Assembly: GCF_013085255.1 (NCBI RefSeq)
Contig: NZ_JABFCX010000002.1
Coordinates: forward strand, 1,168,501-1,232,500
DNA length: 64,000 bases
From: Parvularcula mediterranea
GTDB taxonomy: Bacteria; Pseudomonadota; Alphaproteobacteria; Caulobacterales; Parvularculaceae
Reading direction: 5' to 3'
Part shown: positions 23,787-37,516 of the stretch, piece after piece
How the letters are laid out: the number at the start of each line of letters is the position of its first letter
Position numbering within the stretch: the first letter of the stretch is position 1
Position numbers and translations under genes: made by a program
The notes under the pieces: generated by a model
What the model saw: the letters and a program-made list of their open reading frames with translations, nothing else
Databases searched by the model: none
What the model was told of the DNA's origin: nothing

Positions 23787-25871
23787 ATGAGCGGAACTGC
23801 TGGAGCGCCGGGGCGGAGCCTTTCGGTGAGTGCGACCATCGCAATCTTCGAGCCGCCTCAGTTCGACCCCTCCCAGACTTTGCCTTCGCTCATGCTCAAT
23901 GGAGAGCCTGAGACCTCGCCGCTCGAGGACCCTTGGCCAACCACCCCTTCCTTCGGCGAGGCGCATGGCAAGCGCACCGTGGACATCGCTATTGATCGCG
24001 ACACAGACCTTTACGGTACGGGCGAGGTCACAGGCCCACTTCGCCGCAACGGCCAGACGATCGAGCTGTGGAACACGGACAATCCCAGCTACCGCCGGGT
24101 TCAGGGCCAGCGCCTTTACCAGTCCCACCCCTGGGTCCTTGGCGTCAGGCCAGACGGCAGCGCCTTCGGCATTCTTCACGACAGCACCTGGCGGCAGTCC
24201 CTGATCTGTGGGCGGACCATCAGGTTCGAGACTGACGGCCCCGCAGCGCGCGTCATCGTCATCCTCGGCGAGGACGCAATGGATGTCCTGCGCCAGCTCT
24301 CCAACCTCACCGGCAAGATGGAAATGCCGCCACTCTGGGCCCTCGGCTATAACCAGTGCCGGTGGTCCTACTACCCCGACGCGCGCGTGCGCGAGATCGC
24401 CAATGAGTTCCGCTCACGGAAGATACCGCTCGACGTCATCTGGGTGGATATCCATTACATGGATGACTACCGGGTCTTCACCTTCGACCCTGAGCGCTTC
24501 CCTGATCCTGCAGCAACCAACGCCTATCTCCATGAGAGGGACGTGAAGGCCGTCTGGATGATCGATCCGGGAGTCGCAAAGCAGGATGGCTACTCTGTCT
24601 ACAACAGCGGCGAGGCACGCGATGTCTGGATCAAGACCGCTGACGGGCAGCCTGCCCAAGGCGAGGTCTGGCCGGGCCAAACAGTCTTTCCCGACTTCAC
24701 CACTAAAGAAGCTGTCCATTGGTGGTCGGAGCAATATCAAGACTTCCTCGCGGTTGGAATCGACGGTGTCTGGAACGACATGAACGAGCCTGCGATCTTC
24801 GATGCCGAGACCTGGACCTTGCCGGAGGACGCTGTCCACCGCGGCGGTGCTGCCCACGCAGGTTTGCCGATCCCTGAGGGTCCGCATCTGCGCTATCACA
24901 ACGCCTACGGAATGCTGATGGCGCGCGCCACACGCGACGCGGTTTTGAAAGCCAAGCCGGACAAACGGCCTTTCGTCCTAACCCGCGCCAATGTGCTCGG
25001 CGGGCACCGCTATTGCGCAACCTGGACAGGAGACAATCGTTCGTGTTGGCATCATCTCAAAATGTCGATCCCGATGAGCGTCAACCTCTCGCTATCCGGC
25101 CAGCCCTTCCACGGCCCGGACATTGGCGGCTTTGAGGGCGAGGCTTGGCCAGAGCTGTTCGCTGAATGGATGGCCATTGGTGCCTTTTTCCCCTTCTGCC
25201 GTGGGCACACGATCGAGAAGAGCGCGGATCACGAGCCCTGGTCTTTTGGTCCGGAGACGGAGGAGGTTTGCCGCGTGGCGCTGAGGCGCCGTTATGCGTT
25301 GATGCCCTATCTCTACACGCTGTTCCGCCGGGCAAGCGAAACGGGTGCGCCCGTTATGCTCCCGGCTTTCCTCGCCGATCCGGCGGAGGAGGAGCTGCGT
25401 TTCTGCGACGATCGCTTCCTCCTGGGTTCCGATCTCGCCGTCGAGCCCGGCTGGGCGGATAAGACGATCTCCCTTCCAGAGGACTGGCGGCTGATCCCTC
25501 CGCTGGCGGAGGAAGTGCCCGGCGATATCCATCCGGCACTACGCCTCCGTCCGGGAGGGTTGATCCCGGCCTGTGCGCCCGCGGTCAGTACGGAAGCACT
25601 GACGCTCGAAACCCTGACCCTCCATGTGAACTTCGACCAAGATGGGCACGCGACAGGGTCGCTCTACTGGGATGAGCGAGAGGGCTTCGGCTTCGAGAAT
25701 GGTGCCTATACGGATCTGTCCTTCGTCTGCCAGCGCACCGATGCAGGGGCCACGCTCAAGGTCACGGCAGCAGGCCAGAGGCCGTTGCCAGCTGAGACAA
25801 AGATCATCGTGATCGATGTCGCGAACGCTGAACAACCAGTGCTCGCAACAAGGCTCGGCGCGGTGCTCTAG
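23787..25871 (+). CDS. GH31 family alpha-glucosidase
   Basis: 694 residues from the ATG at 23787, which has TGAGGAGG 6 bases upstream; in-frame ATGs at 23763 and 23781 are less well placed. Retaining alpha-glucosidase fold: nucleophile Asp331 in [12 protein letters not shown] and acid/base Asp416 in TWTGDN. Other family blocks: [16 protein letters not shown] and [17 protein letters not shown]. No signal peptide, so probably cytoplasmic, cleaving alpha-linked gluco-oligosaccharides after uptake. Its stop shares 4 bases with the convergent TolC-like gene. Confidence 0.95.
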
Positions 25872-27265
25872 CCTCCGGACGTCAGTCGTTCTATGTCAAA
25901 GGTTGCGGCGAGGTAGGAGATCCTCGCGGCGGCAAGGGCAAGCTCCGCCTCCGCGACCCGCACCCTGGCATTTGCAGCCGTCTGTTCACGGATGTTGACG
26001 AGGAAGAAGTCACTGGCGCCGTTCCTGAAGCGCCGCCGTTCTGCTTCCTCCAGCTCAGCTGCCTGTTGCGCCTCTAGTGTCGCCAGTTTTAAAAGCTCCT
26101 CTGCCGTTTCAATCGAGACGGTCAGCTTGCGGATTTCCTGCGCGATACGATCGGACAGCAGCCGCTGGCGCTGCTCGAGAGCATCAAGCCGTGCATTGGC
26201 CGAGCGGACACGGCCGCGCGCATCACGGCGTCCGAAGGGCACTTTGAGGGTCACCCCTGCGATGACTTCAGCGTCGTCGCGGCTGATCCCGCCGGGGCCT
26301 ATGGCACCGAAATCGTCACCCGCTTCGACCTTGAGGTCGAGGTTCGGCAAGAGGTCATTGCGCGCAAGGTCACGCTTGAGCTCGAGCCGCTGCCGGGCAA
26401 TCTTCAGGAGGCGAAGTTCTGGCTGTCCGTCGACAATCGAGGCCAGCTCCGCAAGGGACACAGGGCTCGGTAGGTCAAGGTTCAAAGGCTGCTGCTCAGG
26501 AGACGGAACGATCGGCTCGCCATTCTCATCCCTGAGATAAAGCGCCAGATCGTTTGCCGCGAGGGCGAGGGCGAGGTCTGCGCGGCGGACACGGTCACGC
26601 CTCCTCGTCAGGTTCTGGGCATTCTCGGTCAGGAAGATCGCCGCTCTCGCGCCTGAACTGACCTCACGCCTGAGGGCGACATCGCGCCGCTCGGCCAATG
26701 CGAGCAGCCCGGCATAGGCCTGCCGTTCACGGCCCGCGGTCACCCACTGCCAGTAGGCGATCTGCGCACGCTCCTGCACCTCGAGGCGAGCGATCAGGAC
26801 ATCCAGCGCGGCCTCGCTGAGGCCAAGTTCGGCTTCGAGGATGCCCGCCCGCCGGCTATCAATCGTCCGGTTGCGGAGGAGCGAGAAGAGCACGCCGACC
26901 TTGGCTTCGCCGCCTTGGTTAGTGAAGTACTCATCCTCATAGATCGGGAAGTCGCCCTGGGACAGACGATAGCCGCCATAGACCTCAGCACCTAAGGGGG
27001 CGAGGGGCTTGGTCGCCTCCACCGAGGCAATGTCGCCTGAGTAGAAGCCCGCGAGCCTGCCCCTCAGCCTGCTTTCGATGACCGTGTCGAACGCGCCCTC
27101 CGCGCTCAGGCGTTCTCCGGCTGCTACGCGCTGTTCCGCCTCGGCTGCGAGGAGCGCGGGGTAGTGGCGCTCAACGGACTGGATCACCGTTTCGGGCAGG
27201 AGTGGTGCCGTCTGGGCATGGGCAAGCCCTACCAGGAAGATCAGTGCAAGGACAACATACCTCAT
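25868..27265 (-). CDS. TolC-family outer membrane efflux/secretion protein
   Basis: 465 residues; Sec signal peptide (MRYVVLALIFLVGLAHAQ). Long alpha-helical heptad regions (residues 170-260 and 340-440) and repeats of the OEP family indicate the trans-periplasmic channel. It is the last gene of an export operon: its ATG overlaps the stop of the HlyD-like gene by 4 bases (ATGA), indicating coupled translation. It should form the outer-membrane duct for whatever the ABC/HlyD pair moves. Confidence 0.9.
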   Translation of the reverse strand: MRYVVLALIFLVGLAHAQTAPLLPETVIQSVERHYPALLAAEAEQRVAAGERLSAEGAFDTVIESRLRGRLAGFYSGDIASVEATKPLAPLGAEVYGGYRLSQGDFPIYEDEYFTNQGGEAKVGVLFSLLRNRTIDSRRAGILEAELGLSEAALDVLIARLEVQERAQIAYWQWVTAGRERQAYAGLLALAERRDVALRREVSSGARAAIFLTENAQNLTRRRDRVRRADLALALAANDLALYLRDENGEPIVPSPEQQPLNLDLPSPVSLAELASIVDGQPELRLLKIARQRLELKRDLARNDLLPNLDLKVEAGDDFGAIGPGGISRDDAEVIAGVTLKVPFGRRDARGRVRSANARLDALEQRQRLLSDRIAQEIRKLTVSIETAEELLKLATLEAQQAAELEEAERRRFRNGASDFFLVNIREQTAANARVRVAEAELALAAARISYLAATFDIERLTSGG

Positions 27266-28299
27266 TGAGGTGCGAACCCGTCGCTGCTGGCCTCGCCGGT
27301 GAACTCCGGCGGGAAGTTGTTGAGCTGGCGCCAGAGCTCGAAGCCAAGGGGCACGGTCTCGAGGAGGATCCAGCCGCGCACCGTGGCGCCGTAGCGGATG
27401 AACCGCTGGTCAGGCCAGGGCACTTCAGGATTGTCGACTTCTGTCACCAGAACGCGGAACTGACCGTTCGGCTGTGCCGTCGGGTCGATCGTAAGGACCC
27501 GTGCCTCGAACGTGCCGACAGCGACCGATGGCCAGCCGGAGAACTGCACCGCTGGCCACCCCTCGAAGAGGAGGCGGACATCGTCGCCCGGCTTGACCAG
27601 GGCCACGTCGCGGCCGTCGATGAAGAGTTCCACCGCACGCTTCGCGCCATCGGGCTGGAAGGTGGCGACGGCGCTCCCTGCGGAGATGGTGGTGGCGACG
27701 TCGCCTGCATTGAGGCGGAGGATCGTACCGTCCCTCGGTGCACGGATGAGCTGCAGCGACTGGCGCGAGATATCGACCTGCTGGCGGGTGAGGGCCGCTT
27801 CGGCGGCGGCAAGGTCAGCGCGCAGGCCTTCCACGCGGATCGTGGCCTGCTCATAGTCGCGCCGCGCGGCGAGGCCGTCCTCGAACAGGCGCTGGGTCCG
27901 TTCAAGGTCGATCCTCGCGGTGGCAAGGGCGGACGCTGCGGCATTGCGCTGCTCGAGTAGCTGCTGTTGCTCCGCATCAAGACGTTCGAGGAGCTGGGGG
28001 TCATTGTCAGCGACCTTCAGGATCGGATCGCCCTTTTTCACCCGCGCGCCATCACGGACGTACCAGCGCTCGATCCGCCCTGAGACGAGGGCGTTGATCT
28101 CCTGCTGGCGGTCATTGGGGTCGAGGGTCGTGACGATCCCGGGGCCTGACGTGGTCTGGACCCAGGGCGTCATGGTCAGGAAGGCAATCGTCGCGGTGAT
28201 GGTCACCACGAGGATGATCGCCACCGCGGTGAAGATCCGCGGCTTCTTGATCGAGGCCAGGGTGGTGAAGTGTTTGATATGACGCTCACGGAACGGCAT
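27262..28299 (-). CDS. HlyD-family periplasmic adaptor
   Basis: 345 residues: short cytoplasmic N-terminus, one membrane helix at about residues 23-45, a split lipoyl/barrel domain (ALVSGRIERWYVRDGARVKKGDPILKV and IRAPRDGTILRLNAGDVA) and an intervening coiled-coil hairpin at about residues 105-185. It bridges inner-membrane transporter and TolC channel. It lies 3 bases after the ABC gene and overlaps the TolC gene start. 'RAPRDGTI' is the adaptor family's typical return strand. Confidence 0.92.
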   Translation of the reverse strand: MPFRERHIKHFTTLASIKKPRIFTAVAIILVVTITATIAFLTMTPWVQTTSGPGIVTTLDPNDRQQEINALVSGRIERWYVRDGARVKKGDPILKVADNDPQLLERLDAEQQQLLEQRNAAASALATARIDLERTQRLFEDGLAARRDYEQATIRVEGLRADLAAAEAALTRQQVDISRQSLQLIRAPRDGTILRLNAGDVATTISAGSAVATFQPDGAKRAVELFIDGRDVALVKPGDDVRLLFEGWPAVQFSGWPSVAVGTFEARVLTIDPTAQPNGQFRVLVTEVDNPEVPWPDQRFIRYGATVRGWILLETVPLGFELWRQLNNFPPEFTGEASSDGFAPQ

Positions 28300-28302
28300 G
28301 GA

Positions 28303-30054
28303 TCAGGCGCTCTCCATCACGGATGCAAGCGGGACAGGTTTTCGCGCAGCCTCGGCCCGGTCGAGGGCTTCGCAGAACGCCGTGTAGTCGCGGTGGATCG
28401 TCTGCTTGTCAGGCTGCAGGAACAGATATCCGTCAAGGTCCATGTCATCCCGCCGGTTCGAGAAGACGATCACGGTCGTCGGCGCTCCGCCGTCCGTCGT
28501 GGACAAGGCGATCGCCCGCTTCAGGAGCGAAGCCGACATGGTGTCGTAGAGCTGGTTCAGGATGAGTACGGACGGTTTCGACAGAATGCCTGCGGCAAGC
28601 TTGAGGCGCATCGCCTCACTCACCGACAGCGGCCAGCCTGTAGAGCTCAGCATCGTGTCGAGCCCGTCCTCAAGCTCATCAAGCGCCGTGTCGAGGCCGA
28701 CGGCCTCCAAGGTCTGGAGCATTTCCTCCGAGCTGACATTCTTGCTCGAGAGGCGAAGATATTCGCGCATCGTCATCTCAACGAGGGTCGGCCGGTCGAG
28801 CACAACCACTTCGCGGCGGAGAGCATGGATCTCCGTGTCGCGCAGGTCATCGCCGCCAAGGGTGATGATGCCGCCTTCGGGGCTCTCAAAGCGCTTCAGC
28901 AGGTTGCCGAAGAGGCGCTGGGTACCGTGGGTGGACGCGACCGCCTGCAGCTTGACGCCTGAGGGGATATCGAAATCGAAGCGCGCAGGAATGTTCCGGG
29001 CACGGCCTATGACTGAGCGGAAGTGCAGCGAAGCGTCGAGGCGGTCAGGCGTCAGCTGGCCCACGGGCGCTTCCTGCTCGACGTCCCAGAAACGGCTCAG
29101 CTCTTCGGCTGCCGCGCAGAGATCATAGAAATAGACAAGGTACGTCCCAAGCTGGCTCACGCCGAGAAAGGCCACCGACAGCACGAGCTCAGCTGCAACA
29201 AGCTGGCCGAGGGTCAACTGCCCTTCGATCACCAGCCAGCCGCCGAGGCCCAAGAGCGCCGCGCTCGCGGCTGCGTAAAGGATCAGGAAGCTGACCGTCT
29301 GGGAGAAGTGCCGGCGGAAGTGGATGCGGTGCTTCTTCACATACTCCGCGGTGGTGTCATCGGTCTTCCGAAGGGCGAAGGCGATATGGTCGTCGGACTT
29401 GAAGAAGCCGTTCGAGGCACCGAGCCCCTCGAGCCACGCTGCGGCCTTGTGCTTGGCGATGGAGAGGTCGACCGACGTCCTGATCGCCGAGGGCCCCCAG
29501 ATCAGCCAGATCGCCCAGATCAGCACGATCATCACGAGGTTCAGGGCGAGGAACAGCGGATGGTAGAAGCTCGTCAGGACGAAGCCGACCCCTGCCTGCA
29601 GGATCACCGTGAAGCCGCCGATCACAAGGACCGGCATGGCCTTCTGGATGATGATGATGTCGAAATAGCGGTTGAAGAGCGGCCCGCGACCGTCATCGAG
29701 GAAGAACGGGTTCTGCGCATAGAGCGCTCTGAGGGCGATTTCTGACGTCATCCGGGCGTAAAAACGCCGGGCGAAGATCTCCATCAGGTGCACCCGAAGG
29801 GCATTGAGGAGGCCTGAAGCCAGAAGCAGGAAGAACAGCGTGAAGGACAGAACCACCAGCGGTACGGCGAGCCCTGTATAGCCCACCGAGTTGATGAGCA
29901 CCTGCACCGCGATCGGCGTTGCAAGGCTCAACAGGCTGATCCCTATGCCATAAATGACCGCCAGCGCGACGAAACTGCGCTCCGGCTTGATGACATCAGC
30001 CGCCAGGCGAATGACGTGGCGCGCTGAAGGGGTCTCTGGTGATCCAGCGTTCAA
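28303..30054 (-). CDS. ABC transporter (membrane domain plus degenerate ATPase domain)
   Basis: 583 residues from a TTG at 30054 that has GGGAG 6 bases upstream; an upstream reading to 30333 uses no good start and overlaps the divergent lipoprotein leader. Residues 20-300 form a six-helix exporter membrane domain ('VIYGIGISLLSLATPIAVQVLINSVGYTG' region). The C-terminal 240 residues align in order with an ABC ATPase but every key motif is altered: Walker A reads ASTHGTQRLFG (no GKS/T), the signature reads PLSVSEA, Walker B reads VLILNQLYD without the DE pair. ATP hydrolysis is therefore unlikely. First gene of the ABC-HlyD-TolC operon. Frame is uninterrupted, so it is not a simple pseudogene. 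Confidence 0.88.
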   Translation of the reverse strand: MNAGSPETPSARHVIRLAADVIKPERSFVALAVIYGIGISLLSLATPIAVQVLINSVGYTGLAVPLVVLSFTLFFLLLASGLLNALRVHLMEIFARRFYARMTSEIALRALYAQNPFFLDDGRGPLFNRYFDIIIIQKAMPVLVIGGFTVILQAGVGFVLTSFYHPLFLALNLVMIVLIWAIWLIWGPSAIRTSVDLSIAKHKAAAWLEGLGASNGFFKSDDHIAFALRKTDDTTAEYVKKHRIHFRRHFSQTVSFLILYAAASAALLGLGGWLVIEGQLTLGQLVAAELVLSVAFLGVSQLGTYLVYFYDLCAAAEELSRFWDVEQEAPVGQLTPDRLDASLHFRSVIGRARNIPARFDFDIPSGVKLQAVASTHGTQRLFGNLLKRFESPEGGIITLGGDDLRDTEIHALRREVVVLDRPTLVEMTMREYLRLSSKNVSSEEMLQTLEAVGLDTALDELEDGLDTMLSSTGWPLSVSEAMRLKLAAGILSKPSVLILNQLYDTMSASLLKRAIALSTTDGGAPTTVIVFSNRRDDMDLDGYLFLQPDKQTIHRDYTAFCEALDRAEAARKPVPLASVMESA

Positions 30055-30237
30055 GTCCGACTCCCGACGAAAAAAGGGCCCAGCTCTGCCGCTGTCCCTT
30101 GGATCAATTAGAACCGGGAAAGATTGAAACAAGCCTATGGAGACAGGGTCGACTGATAGGTTTTGCGCTGCACCATGGAGCGGATGCTTGAGGGCCCTCC
30201 CAGCTTGCGGCAGCATTCCGGTCAGGGAGACTACGCC

Positions 30238-31440
30238 ATGATGAGAACTGCTCTTGCAGCGTCCTTGATCCTGCTGACCGCCTGCGGAGGCGAGCAGGAA
30301 GCCGCCGCGCCTGTGACCGATGCCAGCTACCAAGAAGAGCTGCAGCTTGCGCTCCTCGACGCACAGCCAGGCGATGTGATCACCATTCCCGCAGGCACCT
30401 ACGCCTTCGACCGGGGGCTCAGCCTCACTGCCGATGGGGTGACGATCCGCGGGGCCGGGATGGCAGAGACGGTGCTAAGCTTCAAAGGGCAGCTCGCAGG
30501 GGCGGAAGGGCTTCTCGTCACCGGCGATGACTTTCTGATTGAGGATCTCTCCATCGAAGACGCCAAGGGTGACGCACTCAAGGTCACCGAAGCGGACGGC
30601 GTGACCATCCGCCGGGTGCGGGTCGCGTGGACCGGCGGGCCGAAAACCGAGAACGGCGCCTATGGATTCTATCCGGTGCAGACCACCAACGTGCTGATCG
30701 AGGACTCTGTCGCGGTCGGCGCCTCGGACGCTGGCATCTATGTCGGTCAGTCGAAGAACGTCATTGTCAGGAACAATCTCGCCGAAGAGAACGTCGCAGG
30801 TATCGAGATCGAAAATACACAGGACGCGGACGTTTACGGGAACGTCGCGAAGAACAACACGGGCGGCATCCTCGTCTTCAACATGCCGAACCTCAAGCAA
30901 GCCGGCGCGAACATCCGTGTGTTCGAGAACGAGGTCGAGGAGAACAACCTCGATAACTTCGCCCATCCCGGAACGCCCGTGGCATCGATCCCCGCAGGCT
31001 CCGGGATTGTCGTGAACAGCCATGACGATGTCGAGATATTCGGCAACACCGTGCGCGACAACCGCACGGCCAATGTGATCATTTCTTCCGTCTACAGCTC
31101 AAACTACGCCGATGATAGCTGGTCAGACAGTTTTGATCCTTATCCTGAGCGTATCGCACTCCACTCGAACACCTTCGAGGGCGGCGGCAATCGCCCCGAC
31201 GGGATGGAGCTGAAGGCTGCGAAACTCATGCTGTTCGGCCCGACGGGGCGGTTCCCTGACGTTCTCTGGGATGGCTACGCGCCAGAAGGCCGTTCACCCG
31301 AAATCTGCATCGGTGACCAAGGGACCGAGGTCCTGAATGCCGACATGCCGAACGGCTCAAAGAACATGCGGGTCGACGCGGAAGGCTTCTCCTGCACGCT
31401 TGAGCCGCTAGCGGCGGTGAGGCTGGCCGAGGCGCTGTAG
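30238..31440 (+). CDS. Parallel beta-helix repeat lipoprotein
   Basis: 400 residues from ATG 30238 (GGGAG upstream). Lipobox LLTACGG gives Cys19-type lipidation. The body is a right-handed parallel beta-helix with NosD/pectate-lyase-like repeats (for example 'GVTIRGAGMAETVLSF', 'NVLIEDSVAVGASDAGIYVGQS', 'NVIVRNNLAEENVAGIEIENT'). It is 6 bases upstream of the diheme cytochrome gene. In Shewanella and others a beta-helix protein is paired with an SO2930-type cytochrome, so the pair probably forms one envelope system of unknown function. Confidence 0.88.
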   Translation: MMRTALAASLILLTACGGEQEAAAPVTDASYQEELQLALLDAQPGDVITIPAGTYAFDRGLSLTADGVTIRGAGMAETVLSFKGQLAGAEGLLVTGDDFLIEDLSIEDAKGDALKVTEADGVTIRRVRVAWTGGPKTENGAYGFYPVQTTNVLIEDSVAVGASDAGIYVGQSKNVIVRNNLAEENVAGIEIENTQDADVYGNVAKNNTGGILVFNMPNLKQAGANIRVFENEVEENNLDNFAHPGTPVASIPAGSGIVVNSHDDVEIFGNTVRDNRTANVIISSVYSSNYADDSWSDSFDPYPERIALHSNTFEGGGNRPDGMELKAAKLMLFGPTGRFPDVLWDGYAPEGRSPEICIGDQGTEVLNADMPNGSKNMRVDAEGFSCTLEPLAAVRLAEAL

Positions 31441-31446
31441 TCGAGG

Positions 31447-32526
31447 ATGAAGAGAGCCCTCCTTGCGATTGCCATGCTTCTCTCTGCATGCGGAGAGAAA
31501 GCTGTCGAGCCCGTCTTCTTCCCTGATGAGAACCCGCAGCTCCTCTCTGACTGGGGTGCGGTTTCGGTGGACAGGGGCGAGCTGCGCCTTGGCGAGGGCG
31601 TCACGCCCTATGCGCTCAGGACGCCGCTCTTCACCGACTATGCGCACAAGCTCCGCACCGTGTGGTCGGTTGGCGAGGCCACTCCGCGAGGAGATTGGGC
31701 GCCGGACTTTCCCGTCGGGACCGTGCTGACCAAGACCTTTTACTACCCTGAGAGCGGCAGCAATGTTCTGAAGGCTGAGGACATGCAGCCGGTGAACGGG
31801 ACGCGCGGTCTGGACCTAGCGGAGCACAGGCTGATCGAAACCCGCCTCCTCGTCAGGCGCAGCGATGGCTGGCACGCTCTCTCCTACGTTTGGAACGAGG
31901 ATGAGACCGAGGCTCGCCTCAAGCGCACGGGCGCAGTGGTGCCCCTGACGCTCGCCTCCAGCGCAGGGGAGGAGGCTTTCCCCTACATCGTGCCCAATGA
32001 AAATCAGTGTGCGTCCTGCCACATCCGCGACGCGACTGATGGCGGTCTCGAACCCCTAGGTCCGACCGAAGCACAGCTTGATCATCCGTACGGCTACGCA
32101 GGCGGTGAGGCGAACCAACTTGCCGCCTGGCGGGAACGCGGCCTTCTGGTGACGACTGGTTATGAGCCTTCCAGCACGGACCCGCTGGCGAGCCTCGATG
32201 GCCGGGCGCGGGCCTACCTCGCTGCCAACTGCGCCCACTGTCACAACCCCGTCGGCCCTGCGGACACGTCCGGGATGGATCTGACGCTCTCCGCCGATGG
32301 CCCGGCGCTCGGGCACTGCAAGCCGCCGATCGCGGCTGGGTCCGGCACAGGGGGCAGGCGCTTCGGAATTGTTCCGGGTGCCCCTGATCAGTCCGTCCTC
32401 ACCTATCGTGTCGCTTCCCGCGACCCCGGCGCCATGATGCCCGAGGTCGGGCGGAGCCTCGTCGATGAGGAAGGCCTTGCGCTTCTCGAGGAATGGATCG
32501 GGGCGATGGACGGGGCCTGCAGCTAG
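31447..32526 (+). CDS. SO2930-family diheme c-type cytochrome lipoprotein
   Basis: 359 residues; lipoprotein signal ending LLSACGE. Two heme-binding CxxCH motifs: NQCASCHIRD (about residue 182) and NCAHCHNPVG (about residue 261), with candidate distal Met ligands in 'GAMMPEVG'. Layout and the 'TPLFTDYAHKLRTVW' N-terminal block match the SO2930 family. Periplasmic electron carrier or redox enzyme. Co-transcribed with the beta-helix protein. Its stop shares 4 bases with the convergent TonB-receptor gene. Confidence 0.9.
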   Translation: MKRALLAIAMLLSACGEKAVEPVFFPDENPQLLSDWGAVSVDRGELRLGEGVTPYALRTPLFTDYAHKLRTVWSVGEATPRGDWAPDFPVGTVLTKTFYYPESGSNVLKAEDMQPVNGTRGLDLAEHRLIETRLLVRRSDGWHALSYVWNEDETEARLKRTGAVVPLTLASSAGEEAFPYIVPNENQCASCHIRDATDGGLEPLGPTEAQLDHPYGYAGGEANQLAAWRERGLLVTTGYEPSSTDPLASLDGRARAYLAANCAHCHNPVGPADTSGMDLTLSADGPALGHCKPPIAAGSGTGGRRFGIVPGAPDQSVLTYRVASRDPGAMMPEVGRSLVDEEGLALLEEWIGAMDGACS

Positions 32527-35500
32527 TAGCCGAACTCGATACCGAAGCCGAAGCTCCGGCCTACGATGTCGTAGTGCTCTGCATAGATGTTCCGTCCACG
32601 GGTGAACCCGACAATGCCTGGAGTGTCATCGGTCAGGTTGGAGATGCTCGCACTGATCCGTACCCGGTCGCCAATCTCGTGCCGATAGGCGAGGTCAAGC
32701 GTCGTGATCGCATCAATCTCCGACTGCGGAAGGTCGAGGGTCGTCGTCCTGACCCGGCCCCGCCGTCTTAGCTGCACCGCGATCTCCTGCCGGTCCCATT
32801 GAATGCCTGCAGCGGCCAGGGTCTCATGCCGCGGCGCGTTGACTTGCCCTTCCTCAAGCGCGCTATCAAGCCGAGCTTCGAGAAGCCACGTATGGAGCCC
32901 CGATGCCCACAGCCGCTCGACCCCAAACCGTCCATCAAGCGACTTCACATAGCGGCTTTCGAAGTCAAACCCACGCCATTGCAGCCGCTGGTCGTTCTCA
33001 AGAACATAAGCATCGCGGAGCAACCGCCCCGTCTCGTCTTCCCGAAGGATATAGGACGCACCCGAAGGATCTACGCCGCAGGTAGGATGCTCAAGACCCT
33101 TTGAGGCCAGGCATAAACCCGTTGCTGTAGCGAACCGCCTGCCGCGCCTTAGGAGGTGGTCCGTGTACGATGCCCTCAGCTGAAGCCGATCGTTCTCCCA
33201 CCCCAGAAGGTCATGGGGCTTGATGATGATATCGCCGCGATAGCTGACTGTGTGCTCTGGTTCGCCGCCGCGAAGGTCGAGGAGGGGAGTCTCCAGAAAT
33301 CCTGCGCCCAGGACCGGCGCCGGATCGACGCCGTTGGGCAGCGTCTGCCGGCAGTTCACCGCAACCGTCCTTTGGTCCGCAGGGAGAAGACCTGCGCAAG
33401 GGTCGCGGGCGTAGGACACCTCATCTGGCTGCCGTGCGAAGACCTCAGAGAGGTTGGGTGGCCTGCCCGCAGCCGTCGCCATGGCGCGCACATCCACCCA
33501 CGAGCGTGGGTTCCAGGAGAACCCTGCCTCGCCAGCGCCCGTCCAGTCCGCCTCTTCGCTGTGGATGGCCCGGGCGCCAAGATGGAGGTTGAAGGGCCCG
33601 AGGACGCTCTCCTCACCGTTGAGAGGGATGACCGCTCGCAGCGCCAGCTGTCCCAGCCGCTCATGGCCTTCAAAGCGCGTCCCGTCAAAGACACCGATCA
33701 GGCGATCTATCGCGGTACGATCCGTATGCGTAGAAACGCTGTCCCAGCGAACGCTGCCCTGCGCACGAAGCTCGATGTCTCTGCCGATAGGCGTACCAAT
33801 CCTCTGGAAGGCATCGGCGAGAAGCTCTGTCTCAGCGACATTGTACTTGGTGCGCTCGGTTCCCGCACGGATGAAGTTTTCGGTACCCGCAAAACCATCA
33901 GCATCAAAAGGCCGGGCGACAACGCAGCCCGCTGTCACCGCGCAGAGATTAGGCGAGAGGGTAGCTTCGAGCGCTCTACGGTCCGCGATGTTCTTCTGCC
34001 TGAAGCCTGTCTGGGTCAGGCCCTGACGCAGCTGAAAGCTCAAGGACAGGCTATCGGTAGGCTGAACATCCACCCCGAGCGCGGCATCCAGCGTCAGCCG
34101 GTCTGTCTCACTGATCCGGGGGCCGAGCGCCGTGAGGCGCTTGTCGAGAACAATCGACGAGACGCCAAGGCCCTCGAAATTCGCCCGGATCGCCTCAGGC
34201 ACGAGGCTGCTCTCAAGATCAATGACCAGCCCGCTGCCCGTCGCATCCGGGCCTGCCGAAAAGCTGACGGCGCCCACAGGAGAGAGCCGCGTCTCTGTCC
34301 GGTTCGCGCCAAGATGCAGCTCGGTAAAGAGCGCGGCGCTGTCGGAAAGCTCATAGTCCAGCTTGCCATAGCCGAGGAGACGTTCATTGGGCAGGAGCGT
34401 GCTCTGCCCCGCCGACCAATTGTAGAGCTGGTCTCGCGAGCCGACGAAAGGCTCGAGCGATCGTCCGTCCCCTGACACGATCAGAGCATTTGTCAGGGAA
34501 CTGGCCTGCACGATCGAGCCGTCATCAAGCACCGCAAAACGCAACCGCCCCTCAGGCGTCAGAGCGCTGCCTCCAAATCCCGGCAGAAGCTCTCCCGTTC
34601 CGGTTTCGGAGAGAAGTCCGTCCACGGCAAAGCCATAAGGCTCACTGGTCAACGCGCGGTCCCGGCCCACAAGGCCATCGGCGATGGTCCCTTCGAGGCC
34701 GAGAACGAAGCTTCCCCGCTCGCCGCGGAACTGCCCTCCGTACACAGTGTAGAGGCTGTAGAGTTCGCCATCGCCTTCTTCCGAGACTGAGCCCCGCGCT
34801 CCCACCTCAAGACCCTCTGCGGCCTGGCGCAGGACGATATTGATCGAGCCCGCTGCTGCGTCGGGGCCGACGGCAACGCTCTGGTTGGAATCGAGGATCT
34901 CGATCCGGTCCAGAAGCGCCGTCGGGATTCCGGTCAGGTCCACCGCGAATACCGTGCCGTTGCCCCCCGAAACGGGCGTCCTGCGCCGACCGTTCACGAG
35001 GACCTGCGTCCTGTCAGGGCCAAGGCCGCGAAGGTCGGCCAGATTGAGGCCCGCGGTTGCGCCAAAGAGCGCCGTGTTGGCCGAGGTGAAAGAGGCGAGG
35101 GTCTGGGGCAGGTCGAAGATCGCGTCGGAGATATCGGTATCGTTCAGGAGGCGGAGCTCTTCGCCCTCGACGACGGTCACCGCGCCCTCCTGGGCAAACC
35201 GGGTCGCGATCGGCGCGCCTGTCACGACAATCGTGTCCACGAGCTGGAGGGAGGGGTCGAGGCTCGCCACCACCACAGGCTTCTTCGGGCCTTCGGTCCT
35301 GATGGCGAAGGTGCCGCGTCCTACCCGCTCGAGCTCCATGCCGAGGGACTGCACGACATCCTGCAGTGCACGCCGCGGATTACGCGCAGGGTCGATGGCC
35401 ACCATCCCTGCGCGGTCCAGACGCCTTGGGTCGTAGATGACCACGAGCCCCGCCTCGTCAGCGAGAGTCTGCACGGCTTCGCGGGCAGGCACTTCGTAGA

Positions 35501-35573
35501 CGGTCGAGCTCGCGAGCGCCGTCCCCGCGAGGCCAGCCGCGAGGGCCGCTAGACTGATCGTCAGCCTGCGCAT
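32523..35573 (-). CDS. TonB-dependent receptor with secretin/STN signalling domain
   Basis: 1016 residues: signal peptide (1-21), STN domain at about residues 22-95 (VYEVPAREAVQTLADEAGLVVIYD...), a TonB-box-like 'VDTIVVTG', the plug (about 115-235) and a long beta-barrel ending in an aromatic-terminated strand (FGFGIEFGY). The STN domain signals to the periplasmic FecR-type regulator when ligand binds. It starts at the base before the FecR stop codon's end, so is translationally coupled. Ligand unknown; Fe-siderophore is one option but glycans are as likely. Confidence 0.95.
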   Translation of the reverse strand: MRRLTISLAALAAGLAGTALASSTVYEVPAREAVQTLADEAGLVVIYDPRRLDRAGMVAIDPARNPRRALQDVVQSLGMELERVGRGTFAIRTEGPKKPVVVASLDPSLQLVDTIVVTGAPIATRFAQEGAVTVVEGEELRLLNDTDISDAIFDLPQTLASFTSANTALFGATAGLNLADLRGLGPDRTQVLVNGRRRTPVSGGNGTVFAVDLTGIPTALLDRIEILDSNQSVAVGPDAAAGSINIVLRQAAEGLEVGARGSVSEEGDGELYSLYTVYGGQFRGERGSFVLGLEGTIADGLVGRDRALTSEPYGFAVDGLLSETGTGELLPGFGGSALTPEGRLRFAVLDDGSIVQASSLTNALIVSGDGRSLEPFVGSRDQLYNWSAGQSTLLPNERLLGYGKLDYELSDSAALFTELHLGANRTETRLSPVGAVSFSAGPDATGSGLVIDLESSLVPEAIRANFEGLGVSSIVLDKRLTALGPRISETDRLTLDAALGVDVQPTDSLSLSFQLRQGLTQTGFRQKNIADRRALEATLSPNLCAVTAGCVVARPFDADGFAGTENFIRAGTERTKYNVAETELLADAFQRIGTPIGRDIELRAQGSVRWDSVSTHTDRTAIDRLIGVFDGTRFEGHERLGQLALRAVIPLNGEESVLGPFNLHLGARAIHSEEADWTGAGEAGFSWNPRSWVDVRAMATAAGRPPNLSEVFARQPDEVSYARDPCAGLLPADQRTVAVNCRQTLPNGVDPAPVLGAGFLETPLLDLRGGEPEHTVSYRGDIIIKPHDLLGWENDRLQLRASYTDHLLRRGRRFATATGLCLASKGLEHPTCGVDPSGASYILREDETGRLLRDAYVLENDQRLQWRGFDFESRYVKSLDGRFGVERLWASGLHTWLLEARLDSALEEGQVNAPRHETLAAAGIQWDRQEIAVQLRRRGRVRTTTLDLPQSEIDAITTLDLAYRHEIGDRVRISASISNLTDDTPGIVGFTRGRNIYAEHYDIVGRSFGFGIEFGY

Positions 35574-36560
35574 CTAGTCCTCGCTCACCGGTCGCGAGAG
35601 GATGATACCGCCGGGCACGCGCTCGACGTCGAGGCCGAGGGCGACACTGATCCCGCGCACGGCCGTCTCTTGGCTATCAAGGGTGAAGGTGCCAGTGACA
35701 ACCTCCTCCGCACCAAGATCATCCCCAAGCCTGATCTGTGTCACGAAATAGCGGTTGAGCTCCTCCACCACCTCGCCGAGGGGCGCTGCGTCAAAGACGA
35801 GCCTTCCGCCGCGCCAGGAAAGAAGCGCGTTCGCGTCGAACCTGACGGGCAGCACAGCCTCTCCATCGGCACGGAACATCACGGCTTCTCCGGCGATCAG
35901 GGTGACGGGGCTCCGCCCTTCCGGGCTGACCTCGACCGTGCCTGAGAGGACCGAGACGTGGGTCTCGGGGCCCGTCTGCCTGACGTTGAAGCTCGTCCCG
36001 ATCACCGTCACCCGGCCATGATCCGTATCGACCGTAAAGATGCGGGAGGGATCCCGCTCCACGTTGAAGAAGACCTCGCCTTCATCAAGGGTGACCATGC
36101 GCGCATCGTCGGTCAGCGCGACTTCGACGGCGGTCCCTGTGTTGAGGGTCATCACCGAAGCATCATCGAGCGTCACGGTGCGCTGGGCCCCGATCCGCGT
36201 TGCGTAGCGGGTAGGCTCGAGAGGTTCCGGTGTGCTCGGCAGGCTGAAGAATATGGCCGAGGCCGCCAGCACGACCGTGGCTGCAACAGCTGCAAACGGC
36301 CAGGGCGAGCGGCGTTCAGCACTTCCTTCTGAAAGCGCGTGAAGCTCTTCCTCGAAGCTCTCCGCAAGAAGGTCCTCAGCATGGGGATCAAGCGCTGTCA
36401 CTGCCCGCTCCATCTCCCCGAGCGCATCCTCATTGGCAGGCTCCGCGCGCCATTCAGTAAAACGGCGCTCCTCGTCGGGGGTGAGGGGGCCTCGTTCGAT
36501 CCTCGCGAACCACTGGGCGACTTCCGCTTCGGTGGGTTTGGGGGTCTGGTTCATGGTCAT
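35574..36560 (-). CDS. FecR-family anti-sigma/transducer protein
   Basis: 328 residues. N-terminal cytosolic DUF4880 (QWFARIERGPLTPDEERRF), one membrane helix at about residues 88-105, a periplasmic FecR domain ('TRIGAQRTVTLDDASVMTLNTGT', 'VEVALTDDARMVTLDEGEVFFNV') and a C-terminal DUF4974-like STN-interacting domain. It transmits the receptor signal to the sigma factor. ATG at 36560 with AGGACC just before it; a second ATG is two codons in. Operon order sigma-FecR-receptor is the standard one. Confidence 0.94.
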   Translation of the reverse strand: MTMNQTPKPTEAEVAQWFARIERGPLTPDEERRFTEWRAEPANEDALGEMERAVTALDPHAEDLLAESFEEELHALSEGSAERRSPWPFAAVAATVVLAASAIFFSLPSTPEPLEPTRYATRIGAQRTVTLDDASVMTLNTGTAVEVALTDDARMVTLDEGEVFFNVERDPSRIFTVDTDHGRVTVIGTSFNVRQTGPETHVSVLSGTVEVSPEGRSPVTLIAGEAVMFRADGEAVLPVRFDANALLSWRGGRLVFDAAPLGEVVEELNRYFVTQIRLGDDLGAEEVVTGTFTLDSQETAVRGISVALGLDVERVPGGIILSRPVSED

Positions 36561-36564
36561 GGTC

Positions 36565-37173
36565 CTAGCGCCCCCTACCGCGGCCTGGCGCGTTCAGCGG
36601 GACGACATTGCTGGCCTCGTCACCCCTGACCGATGCACGGAGATGGGCGAGGGCGGCGATGATATACTTTTCGATGCTGGACACTGAGACACCGAGAACG
36701 CCCGCTATCTCAGCGTAACTCTTCTCTTCGAAGCGCGACATAATGAATGCCCGCCGCTGCTTCTCCGGCAGGCCGCGGATTGCCTCGAGGGCGGAGAGGG
36801 TCTCGGTGCGGGTCAGGAGCTGGCTCTCGGGCGAGGGGCTGTCCGACGGCACACTGGCCACAAGATCAGTCTCGTCGTCCTTCGACTGCTCGGTCAGGCC
36901 AGCCTTACGGCGGCGCGAGCGGGAGCGGAACTCGTTGGCGGCAAGATTGGCGGCCGTCCGGAAGAGGAGCGCCTTCACGTTCTCAATGTCGTTGCTTTCG
37001 GCGTAGCGCCAGACGCGCAGATAGGTGTCCTGCGCCAGGTCTTCCGCCATCTCCCGGTCGCCGAACTTCGACGTGAGCCAGCCAACAAGCATGCGGTGAT
37101 GCTTGCGGAGCTGCCTATCCAGAACCCCGCGGTTTCCTTGGCCTGCAAGGATCCTCTCAGGATCATCAGTCAT
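36565..37173 (-). CDS. ECF RNA polymerase sigma factor (FecI-like)
   Basis: 202 residues from ATG 37173. Region 2 is in 'REMAEDLAQDTYLRVWRYAES' and 'ALLFRTAANLAANEFRS', region 4 in 'LPEKQRRAFIMSRFEEKSYAEIAGVLGVSVSSIEKYI' (helix-turn-helix). It is presumably held by the adjacent FecR protein and released when the receptor binds ligand, to transcribe the receptor gene. A stretch of 8 residues earlier is possible but not needed. Followed by FecR after 4 bases. Confidence 0.93.
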   Translation of the reverse strand: MTDDPERILAGQGNRGVLDRQLRKHHRMLVGWLTSKFGDREMAEDLAQDTYLRVWRYAESNDIENVKALLFRTAANLAANEFRSRSRRRKAGLTEQSKDDETDLVASVPSDSPSPESQLLTRTETLSALEAIRGLPEKQRRAFIMSRFEEKSYAEIAGVLGVSVSSIEKYIIAALAHLRASVRGDEASNVVPLNAPGRGRGR

Positions 37174-37516
37174 AACGCATCCAACTCTGCCGGGCACGCG
37201 CCCGGCGTTTCTGCCTGACCGTCAGGATCCTTGGGTGCGCTCCCTCCTGCATTTTTCATGCAGTGCCTTGAGGGGTCTTTGCGTCCCGGTGTCCTTTTGG
37301 TCGGGCAGTCAGTTGATGCTGAGTGTCCTACCCCAATGAACTTGGCGGATCCGAATGCCTCTCGGATCCGCCGCTTTTGTAGGATCGAAGAACAGCGCTT
37401 GGCAAGCGCCGCCGCCTCAAGAGAGCCTCGGAAGAGGCTGGGCGTTGCGTAAAGAGCACGAAAAAACCGCGCCCTTTAGAGCGCGGTTTTCGTCGTGTCC
37501 GGAATATCCGTAGGCG
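37174..37516. other. Intergenic region upstream of the sigma operon, with two hairpins
   Basis: No gene is seen on either strand. A perfect 11-bp stem (37344-37354/37362-37372) with 7-base loop is followed on the + strand by GCTTTTG, as for a terminator with no visible upstream gene. The terminator at 37463 belongs to the GH97 gene. The remainder should hold the sigma-factor promoter. Confidence 0.5.
37461..37490 (-). terminator. Terminator of the GH97 gene
   Basis: 10-bp perfect stem (37463-37472 with 37481-37490), 8-base loop; on the minus strand it is followed by a run of T's. It lies 27 bases beyond the GH97 stop. A weaker T-run on the other side makes it possibly bidirectional. Confidence 0.85.

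Follow-up and report, generated by a model that had tools for sequence, protein, structure and literature searches.

The exporter gene in our window, the whole 64,000-nucleotide stretch of Parvularcula mediterranea DNA that was analysed, encodes a member of what the alignments support well as a conserved class of ATP-dead exporters, ABC-fold proteins whose nucleotide-binding domain (NBD) is shown by sequence comparison to be under purifying selection while lacking the residues of a normal ATPase. The loss of ATP-site residues, and the fact that this loss is common to many species, point to a preserved exporter that is probably not powered by its own ATP hydrolysis. Taken together, the loss of the ATP site, a glutamate in TM6, an inversion of conservation between the two domains and a change in the adaptor suggest ion-coupled transport, and we regard it as an evenly balanced possibility that this ABC-fold tripartite exporter has turned from ATP-driven to ion-gradient-driven transport.

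The exporter operon and its former ATP site

The ABC gene (28303..30054, minus strand) runs from a TTG start through 583 amino acids and a stop, with no internal stop, and encodes an ABC-exporter-fold protein made up of a membrane domain and a dead NBD. It is the first gene of an operon that continues on the minus strand with an HlyD-like periplasmic adaptor of 345 aa (27262..28299; Pfam HlyD_3) and then a TolC-like outer membrane channel of 465 aa (25868..27265; Pfam OEP), and we refer to the three genes as the triad. Three bases separate the ABC stop from the adaptor start, and the TolC-like and HlyD-like genes overlap by 4 bases. Pfam ABC_membrane matches the ABC protein with 37.6 bits (cut-off 28), and ABC_tran barely passes at 25.4 bits against a cut-off of 25. 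An AlphaFold2 run using an alignment of 52 rows gave a whole exporter fold (pLDDT 84.9, pTM 0.72) with PCAT1 (8vox) and HlyB (8dck) as its top PDB matches in Foldseek, both at a TM of 0.83; by these matches and that of Pfam ABC_membrane, the membrane domain and fold of an ABC exporter are present. The initial annotation, which named no strand, had described an ABC protein that keeps its membrane domain and shares an operon with HlyD and TolC partners, and the Pfam matches, the gene spacing and the whole exporter model all bear this out.

No curated NCBIfam model was passed by the ABC protein, the highest score being 83.6 bits against a cut-off of 709. The top four matches were peptide or type I secretion exporters (76–84 bits, cut-offs 524–726), and the type I secretion (T1SS) models LssB (76 of 693 bits) and HlyB (78 of 726) both stayed below cut-off. 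Compared with HlyB, LssB and PCAT1, the window system is alike in fold and in its gene set of HlyD-like adaptor and TolC-like channel, but differs in its dead NBD, short adaptor and TM6 glutamate and in passing no T1SS model. The window protein has no N-terminal peptidase-like domain. Public records often label proteins of its clade plainly as 'ABC transporter ATP-binding protein'.

Six key residues of the ATP site (the Walker A Lys, the Walker B Asp and Glu, the Q-loop Gln, the H-switch His and a signature Gly) were read by column in an alignment of 157 distinct exporters, made up of 100 clade members, the window protein included, and 57 canonical exporters. All six are replaced in the window NBD; in the same alignment 51 of the 57 canonical exporters keep all six, two keep five, three keep four and one keeps three. 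On the minus strand, the former Walker A reads VASTHGTQR (residues 372–380; 28915..28941), the former Q-loop LDRP (residues 419–422; 28789..28800), the former signature region TGWPLSVSEAMRLKLA (residues 472–487; 28594..28641), the former Walker B VLILNQLYD, with D changed to N and E to Q (residues 496–504; 28543..28569), and the former H-switch IVFSNR (residues 529–534; 28453..28470). A functional ATP site therefore appears to be absent from the window protein across Walker A, Walker B, signature, Q-loop and H-switch. In the model, the strand at residues 368–373 runs nearly straight into a helix predicted from residue 376, and since the two almost abut there would be scant space for a P-loop. 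The earlier reading of an intact frame in which Walker A, the signature and Walker B have all lost key residues thus agrees with the column count and the uninterrupted 583 codons, and the structure prediction it had suggested for the C-terminal domain, here part of the whole exporter model, is consistent with it.

The clade and the spread of ATP-site loss

We cut the clade by profile score, with 100 sequences (window included) at 225 bits or above, 57 below, and none between 195 and 260. A membrane-domain profile made without the TM6 segment gives an identical split, the lowest clade member scoring 168 bits and the highest other sequence 36. The clade spans Alpha- and Gammaproteobacteria and Bacteroidota, and of its 100 members 75 have none of the six key residues left, 18 have a single one, six have two and one has three. 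The initial annotation had reasoned that loss shared by many species would indicate a distinct transporter class, as these counts do; the opposite picture, of homologues with normal motifs around a lone damaged copy, was also sought, and a complete motif set was found in none of the 100 clade members, where three of six is the maximum. The Q-loop Gln is missing in 100 of 100 and so its loss may be old, and the Walker A Lys-Ser/Thr pair is missing in 97.

The most intact member, L180, has a Walker A of GGPGTGKSS and the Walker B DE and lacks both the Q-loop Gln and the H-switch His. Walker A also survives in L134, together with the Walker B Asp, and in Riemerella L168, which has a Glu in Walker B, and Persicobacter L167 and L170 have GKN in Walker A; a Lys stands in the Walker A column of L089, L093, L169 and L183, yet no P-loop surrounds it. 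L180, L167 and L170 have ~160–180 additional aa at the N-terminus, which may be the peptidase-like domain that type I secretion transporters carry. For L183, L184 and L185, from gammaproteobacterial genomes of ~2–3 Mb, in-frame stops are listed, and their open frames hold most of the domain.

The membrane-domain tree separates its nine T1SS-type outgroup sequences at 100/100, but its rooting within the clade is unsure; the first such tree held one very long outgroup branch. In 78% of bootstrap trees a branch sets 31 dead sequences (group A) apart from all others, though the best tree does not have it, while group B is formed by the partly intact members and the dead L169, L183, L184 and L185. 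A single clade for group A was not rejected (p-AU 0.213), the groups having been named after the first tree was inspected.

Within the genus, orthologues with 60–71% identity occur in six of nine other genomes (7/10 counting the window's own), all with degenerate motifs. At family level the count is 12 of 62 genomes, own genome included, and a sample of the order gave orthologues in 17 of 398. Clade members were found in 3 of 385 genomes sampled from the class, the fourth match (L126) being canonical, in 11 of 398 from the phylum, the twelfth (L135) being canonical, and in 14 of 369 from the class of G1090, in which 361 genomes match but every match read beyond the fourteenth is canonical; these three samples partly overlap and count the own genome where it was drawn. 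Named genomes, when scanned, contributed 68 loci in Alpha- and Gammaproteobacteria, including Parvularcula, Erythrobacter, Porphyrobacter and Halieaceae (Luminiphilus, Pseudohaliea, Chromatocurvus and others), a number that includes second copies of already counted genus genomes and one fragment (L106). The triad is also borne by Sphingomonadaceae plasmids, and divergent triads by Bacteroidota replicons. A Blastomonas fulva 'HlyBD2-OMP2' operon with similar gene lengths is treated as an ordinary ABC pump in PMC9505733, and judged by those lengths it is probably a member of the family.

Selection, membrane residues and adaptor

As dN/dS across all pairs was saturated, we used close pairs instead, drawn from the 95 sequences left after removal of five with Walker A GK[S/N]. 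The NBD dN/dS was 0.032–0.47 in 13 disjoint close pairs, and the full set of 163 close pairs has a median of 0.273 (range 0.032–1.066). Conservation is higher in the membrane domain than in the NBD for 99.9% of 4943 clade pairs, as opposed to 1.4% of 1540 canonical pairs, and at 50–60% membrane-domain identity the mean NBD identity is 67% for canonical exporters (25 pairs) and 40% for dead ones (908 pairs). Purifying selection together with this inverted constraint suggests that the NBD is retained as a domain and is no longer constrained as an ATPase. The family's NBD also retains motifs of its own, namely LDRP, TG[WY]PLS, QLKLA and LFD.

The TM6 glutamate of the window protein, E289 (29188..29190, minus strand), lies within GQLVAAELV and is the sole charged residue from 278 to 310. 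A Glu at this position is present in 100/100 clade members and 0/57 canonical exporters. It occurs as well in the relatives with Walker A GK[S/N] (L134, L180, L168, L167 and L170), so we treat it as a marker of the clade and not as a mark of ATP independence. Towards the cytoplasmic end, the position of D311 holds D or E in 94 of the 100 clade members, but it does so in 19 of the 57 canonical exporters as well. R129, F131, K201 and W207 are near-invariant in the clade; we take the first two to lie in the first coupling helix and the last two in the second, and their conservation suggests that the dead NBD still docks.

Genes for the adaptor and channel come next in 77 of 77 loci having at least 3 kb downstream, a set that includes some second fetches of one place. 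Distance limits in our script caught the adaptor in 75 and the channel in 70; in the eight exceptions, read individually from the output, both matches are on one strand and fall slightly beyond the limits, an effect of working with stop-to-stop frames. Across lineages only the triad is conserved, and in the neighbourhood we found no conserved substrate or enzyme gene. Several apparent clusters in the flanks were antisense frames of high-GC genes, the Erythrobacter loci have local flanks of their own in common, and adjacency to a LysR-type regulator is weak (upstream in 9 and downstream in 5 of 72 loci).

The window adaptor has a short hairpin and an FEGWP/FSGWP motif, and passes the RND adaptor model TIGR01730 (RND_mfp) with 96.5 bits against a cut-off of 94.9, scoring only 59 with type_I_hlyD. 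In the two other adaptors covered by this NCBIfam scan, those of L136 and L168, type_I_hlyD scored higher (80 and 96.5) than the RND model (63.5 and 62), all below cut-off. Adaptor lengths were read at 98 distinct loci and are 337–376 aa in 87 distinct dead proteobacterial systems, 329–359 in L183–L187, and 434–451 in the five Walker A GK[S/N] systems (L134, L180, L167, L170 and L168). The exception is the dead Aureibacter L169, whose adaptor is also long and within 434–451 aa, and the length pattern may reflect ancestry instead of function. When 18 adaptors were aligned, the short hairpin had ~46 residues less per side than those of L134, L180 and L168. The passing of TIGR01730 and the short hairpin are likenesses to RND pumps with their AcrA/MexA type adaptors, but the inner-membrane component of the window system has an ABC fold and not an RND one.

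Possible energy sources and genes nearby

Under ion coupling, the ABC-fold protein would form a homodimer in the inner membrane, its dead NBD still folded, docked against the coupling helices and serving as a scaffold for dimerisation or gating. Alternating access would be powered through E289, perhaps with D311, by an ion gradient, most likely of protons, and the substrate, probably a small molecule, would exit via adaptor and channel. For the family as a whole, we give a little less than an even chance to the broader picture of widespread natural ABC-fold exporters that do without ATP, their NBD scaffolds variously decayed in several lineages and an ion gradient used through the Glu. ABC exporters are defined by their use of ATP, and ion coupling, if true, would make this a new energetic class of transporter in which a primary-active ABC exporter evolved into a secondary-active one, a natural counterpart to LmrA and MsbA engineered to lack the NBD. 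A selected natural family without an ATP site, with relatives at intermediate stages, makes the ion-gradient question directly testable.

In PMC2704374, PMC6155054 and PMC4979069, it is LmrA and MsbA, whole or truncated, that provide the evidence for ABC membrane domains working with ion gradients. There, NBD-less LmrA and MsbA move ethidium using the proton gradient, purified NBD-less LmrA is an ethidium-proton symporter that requires E314 of TM6, and NBD-less MsbA uses the pH gradient and exports less well than whole MsbA. The window family is similar in having an ABC membrane dimer and acidic membrane residues of the kind needed there, but those proteins are laboratory truncations, whereas here the loss of the ATP site is natural and the NBD is retained. 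By a rough offset from the Walker A lysine, made without aligning an LmrA sequence, LmrA E314 is ~21 residues beyond E289 and near D311, so LmrA serves as an analogy and not as a shared site. Among the open-access literature titles listed, none concerned a wholly ATP-dead conserved T1SS-like exporter family; the fold and gene set themselves are known already.

Several other explanations could account for the dead NBD, and the initial annotation had raised three of them: a passive conduit, a domain used for substrate binding, and power from another ATPase. The membrane dimer may be a gated pore or downhill carrier feeding the adaptor and channel, a passive or facilitated conduit for which the missing Walker A Lys-Ser/Thr pair in nearly the entire clade speaks; we consider this unlikely, as the conserved residues of the coupling helices, the constraint on the NBD and the invariant TM6 Glu would have no obvious use in a pure pore. 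The NBD may instead be a ligand sensor or regulatory domain, with the protein acting chiefly as a receptor or as a regulator of the adaptor and channel. Its constrained evolution and the family motifs it retains fit such a role, but the membrane domain is the best-conserved part and the adaptor and channel genes always follow, as for an exporter, and we find the idea quite improbable. Some cryptic use of nucleotide, with ATP or another nucleotide bound or used at a non-canonical site, draws on L134, L180 and L168, which keep Walker A, so that a nucleotide role once existed in the clade. It seems very doubtful, as the window protein and 74 other members keep no key residue, and in the window model the strand all but meets the helix where the P-loop belongs. 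Loss of catalytic motifs is also what a pseudogene or decaying copy would display, which is scarcely credible here given that homologues across classes and phyla show a like loss; we rejected decay on the open frame, the intact operon and the 13 disjoint close pairs, none of which reaches an NBD dN/dS of 0.5.

It had also been suggested that another ATPase powers the system, through pairing with an intact ABC half-transporter or with a separate ATPase encoded elsewhere. According to PMC7756269, a heterodimer in which one of the sites is weak is the form taken by many ABC exporters; the other site stays canonical, and ATP is still held at the degenerate one. The window protein resembles heterodimeric exporters such as TM287/288, TmrAB and TAP in that its NBD has lost catalytic residues; unlike them, it retains not one of the six, and the genes close by encode no partner. 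Looking at flanks across lineages, we found no second ABC gene conserved beside the triad, and a dedicated partner adjoining the operon was rejected. Elsewhere in the genome, three exporter types found in both triad-bearing and triad-less congeners are possible shared partners, and one type (L230/L232/L233, 50–58% identical) is present in three of six triad-bearing genomes (G000, G001 and G006), its best match in two triad-less congeners being only 34–35% identical. Against this, the triad-bearing G003 and G005 hold just four other ABC_membrane matches each. All four of G003 were compared, three having orthologues of at least 58% identity in triad-less congeners and the fourth sharing at most 38% identity with any sequence in the comparison, which means that G003 lacks the L230 type; in G005 three of the four were compared. 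Over the 35 loci compared, a subset of the exporters of eight genomes, none of the exporter types was both present in all triad-bearing congeners and absent from all triad-less ones. ATP supplied in trans is thus disfavoured and in our view rather unlikely, the absence of a conserved partner beside the triad weighing against the suggestion and the L230 type in its favour.

Returning to ion coupling, an exporter that runs on a gradient would be well served by proton pumping with light, and we compared light genes between genomes with and without the triad. Within the family, reaction centre genes (PF00124) are present in 4 of the 12 genomes that have the triad and in 3 of the 50 that lack it (Fisher p = 0.022), and in gammaproteobacteria in 2 of 14 and 0 of 30 (p = 0.096), while microbial rhodopsins are present in 5 of 28 triad-bearing genomes, the window's own among them, and 1 of 18 triad-less genomes tested; as these tests ignore genome relatedness and incompleteness, we treat the association as a lead only.

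Distances between light genes and the triad vary. In the window's genome, one microbial rhodopsin gene (G000:C1:1165417-1166100) lies ~2.4 kb before the window start and ~31 kb from the triad, and a second is on another contig. The triad is ~12 kb from reaction-centre genes in L234 (G1145:C9:80500-100400) and ~31 kb in L235-L236 (G541:C1:1896000-1935800), with other genes between in both cases; in G058 the distance is ~110 kb, in G409 and G1066 the genes are far off, and in others they are on another contig. Divergent from the exporter operon, the window has a gene pair at 30163-32526 (plus strand) for a parallel beta-helix protein (TIGR03805) and then an SO2930-family diheme cytochrome (TIGR03806), each scoring above the cut-off of its model. 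Next to these, at 32523-37197 (minus strand), TonB-dependent receptor-like, FecR-like and ECF sigma genes stand in a row, a typical cell-surface signalling set.
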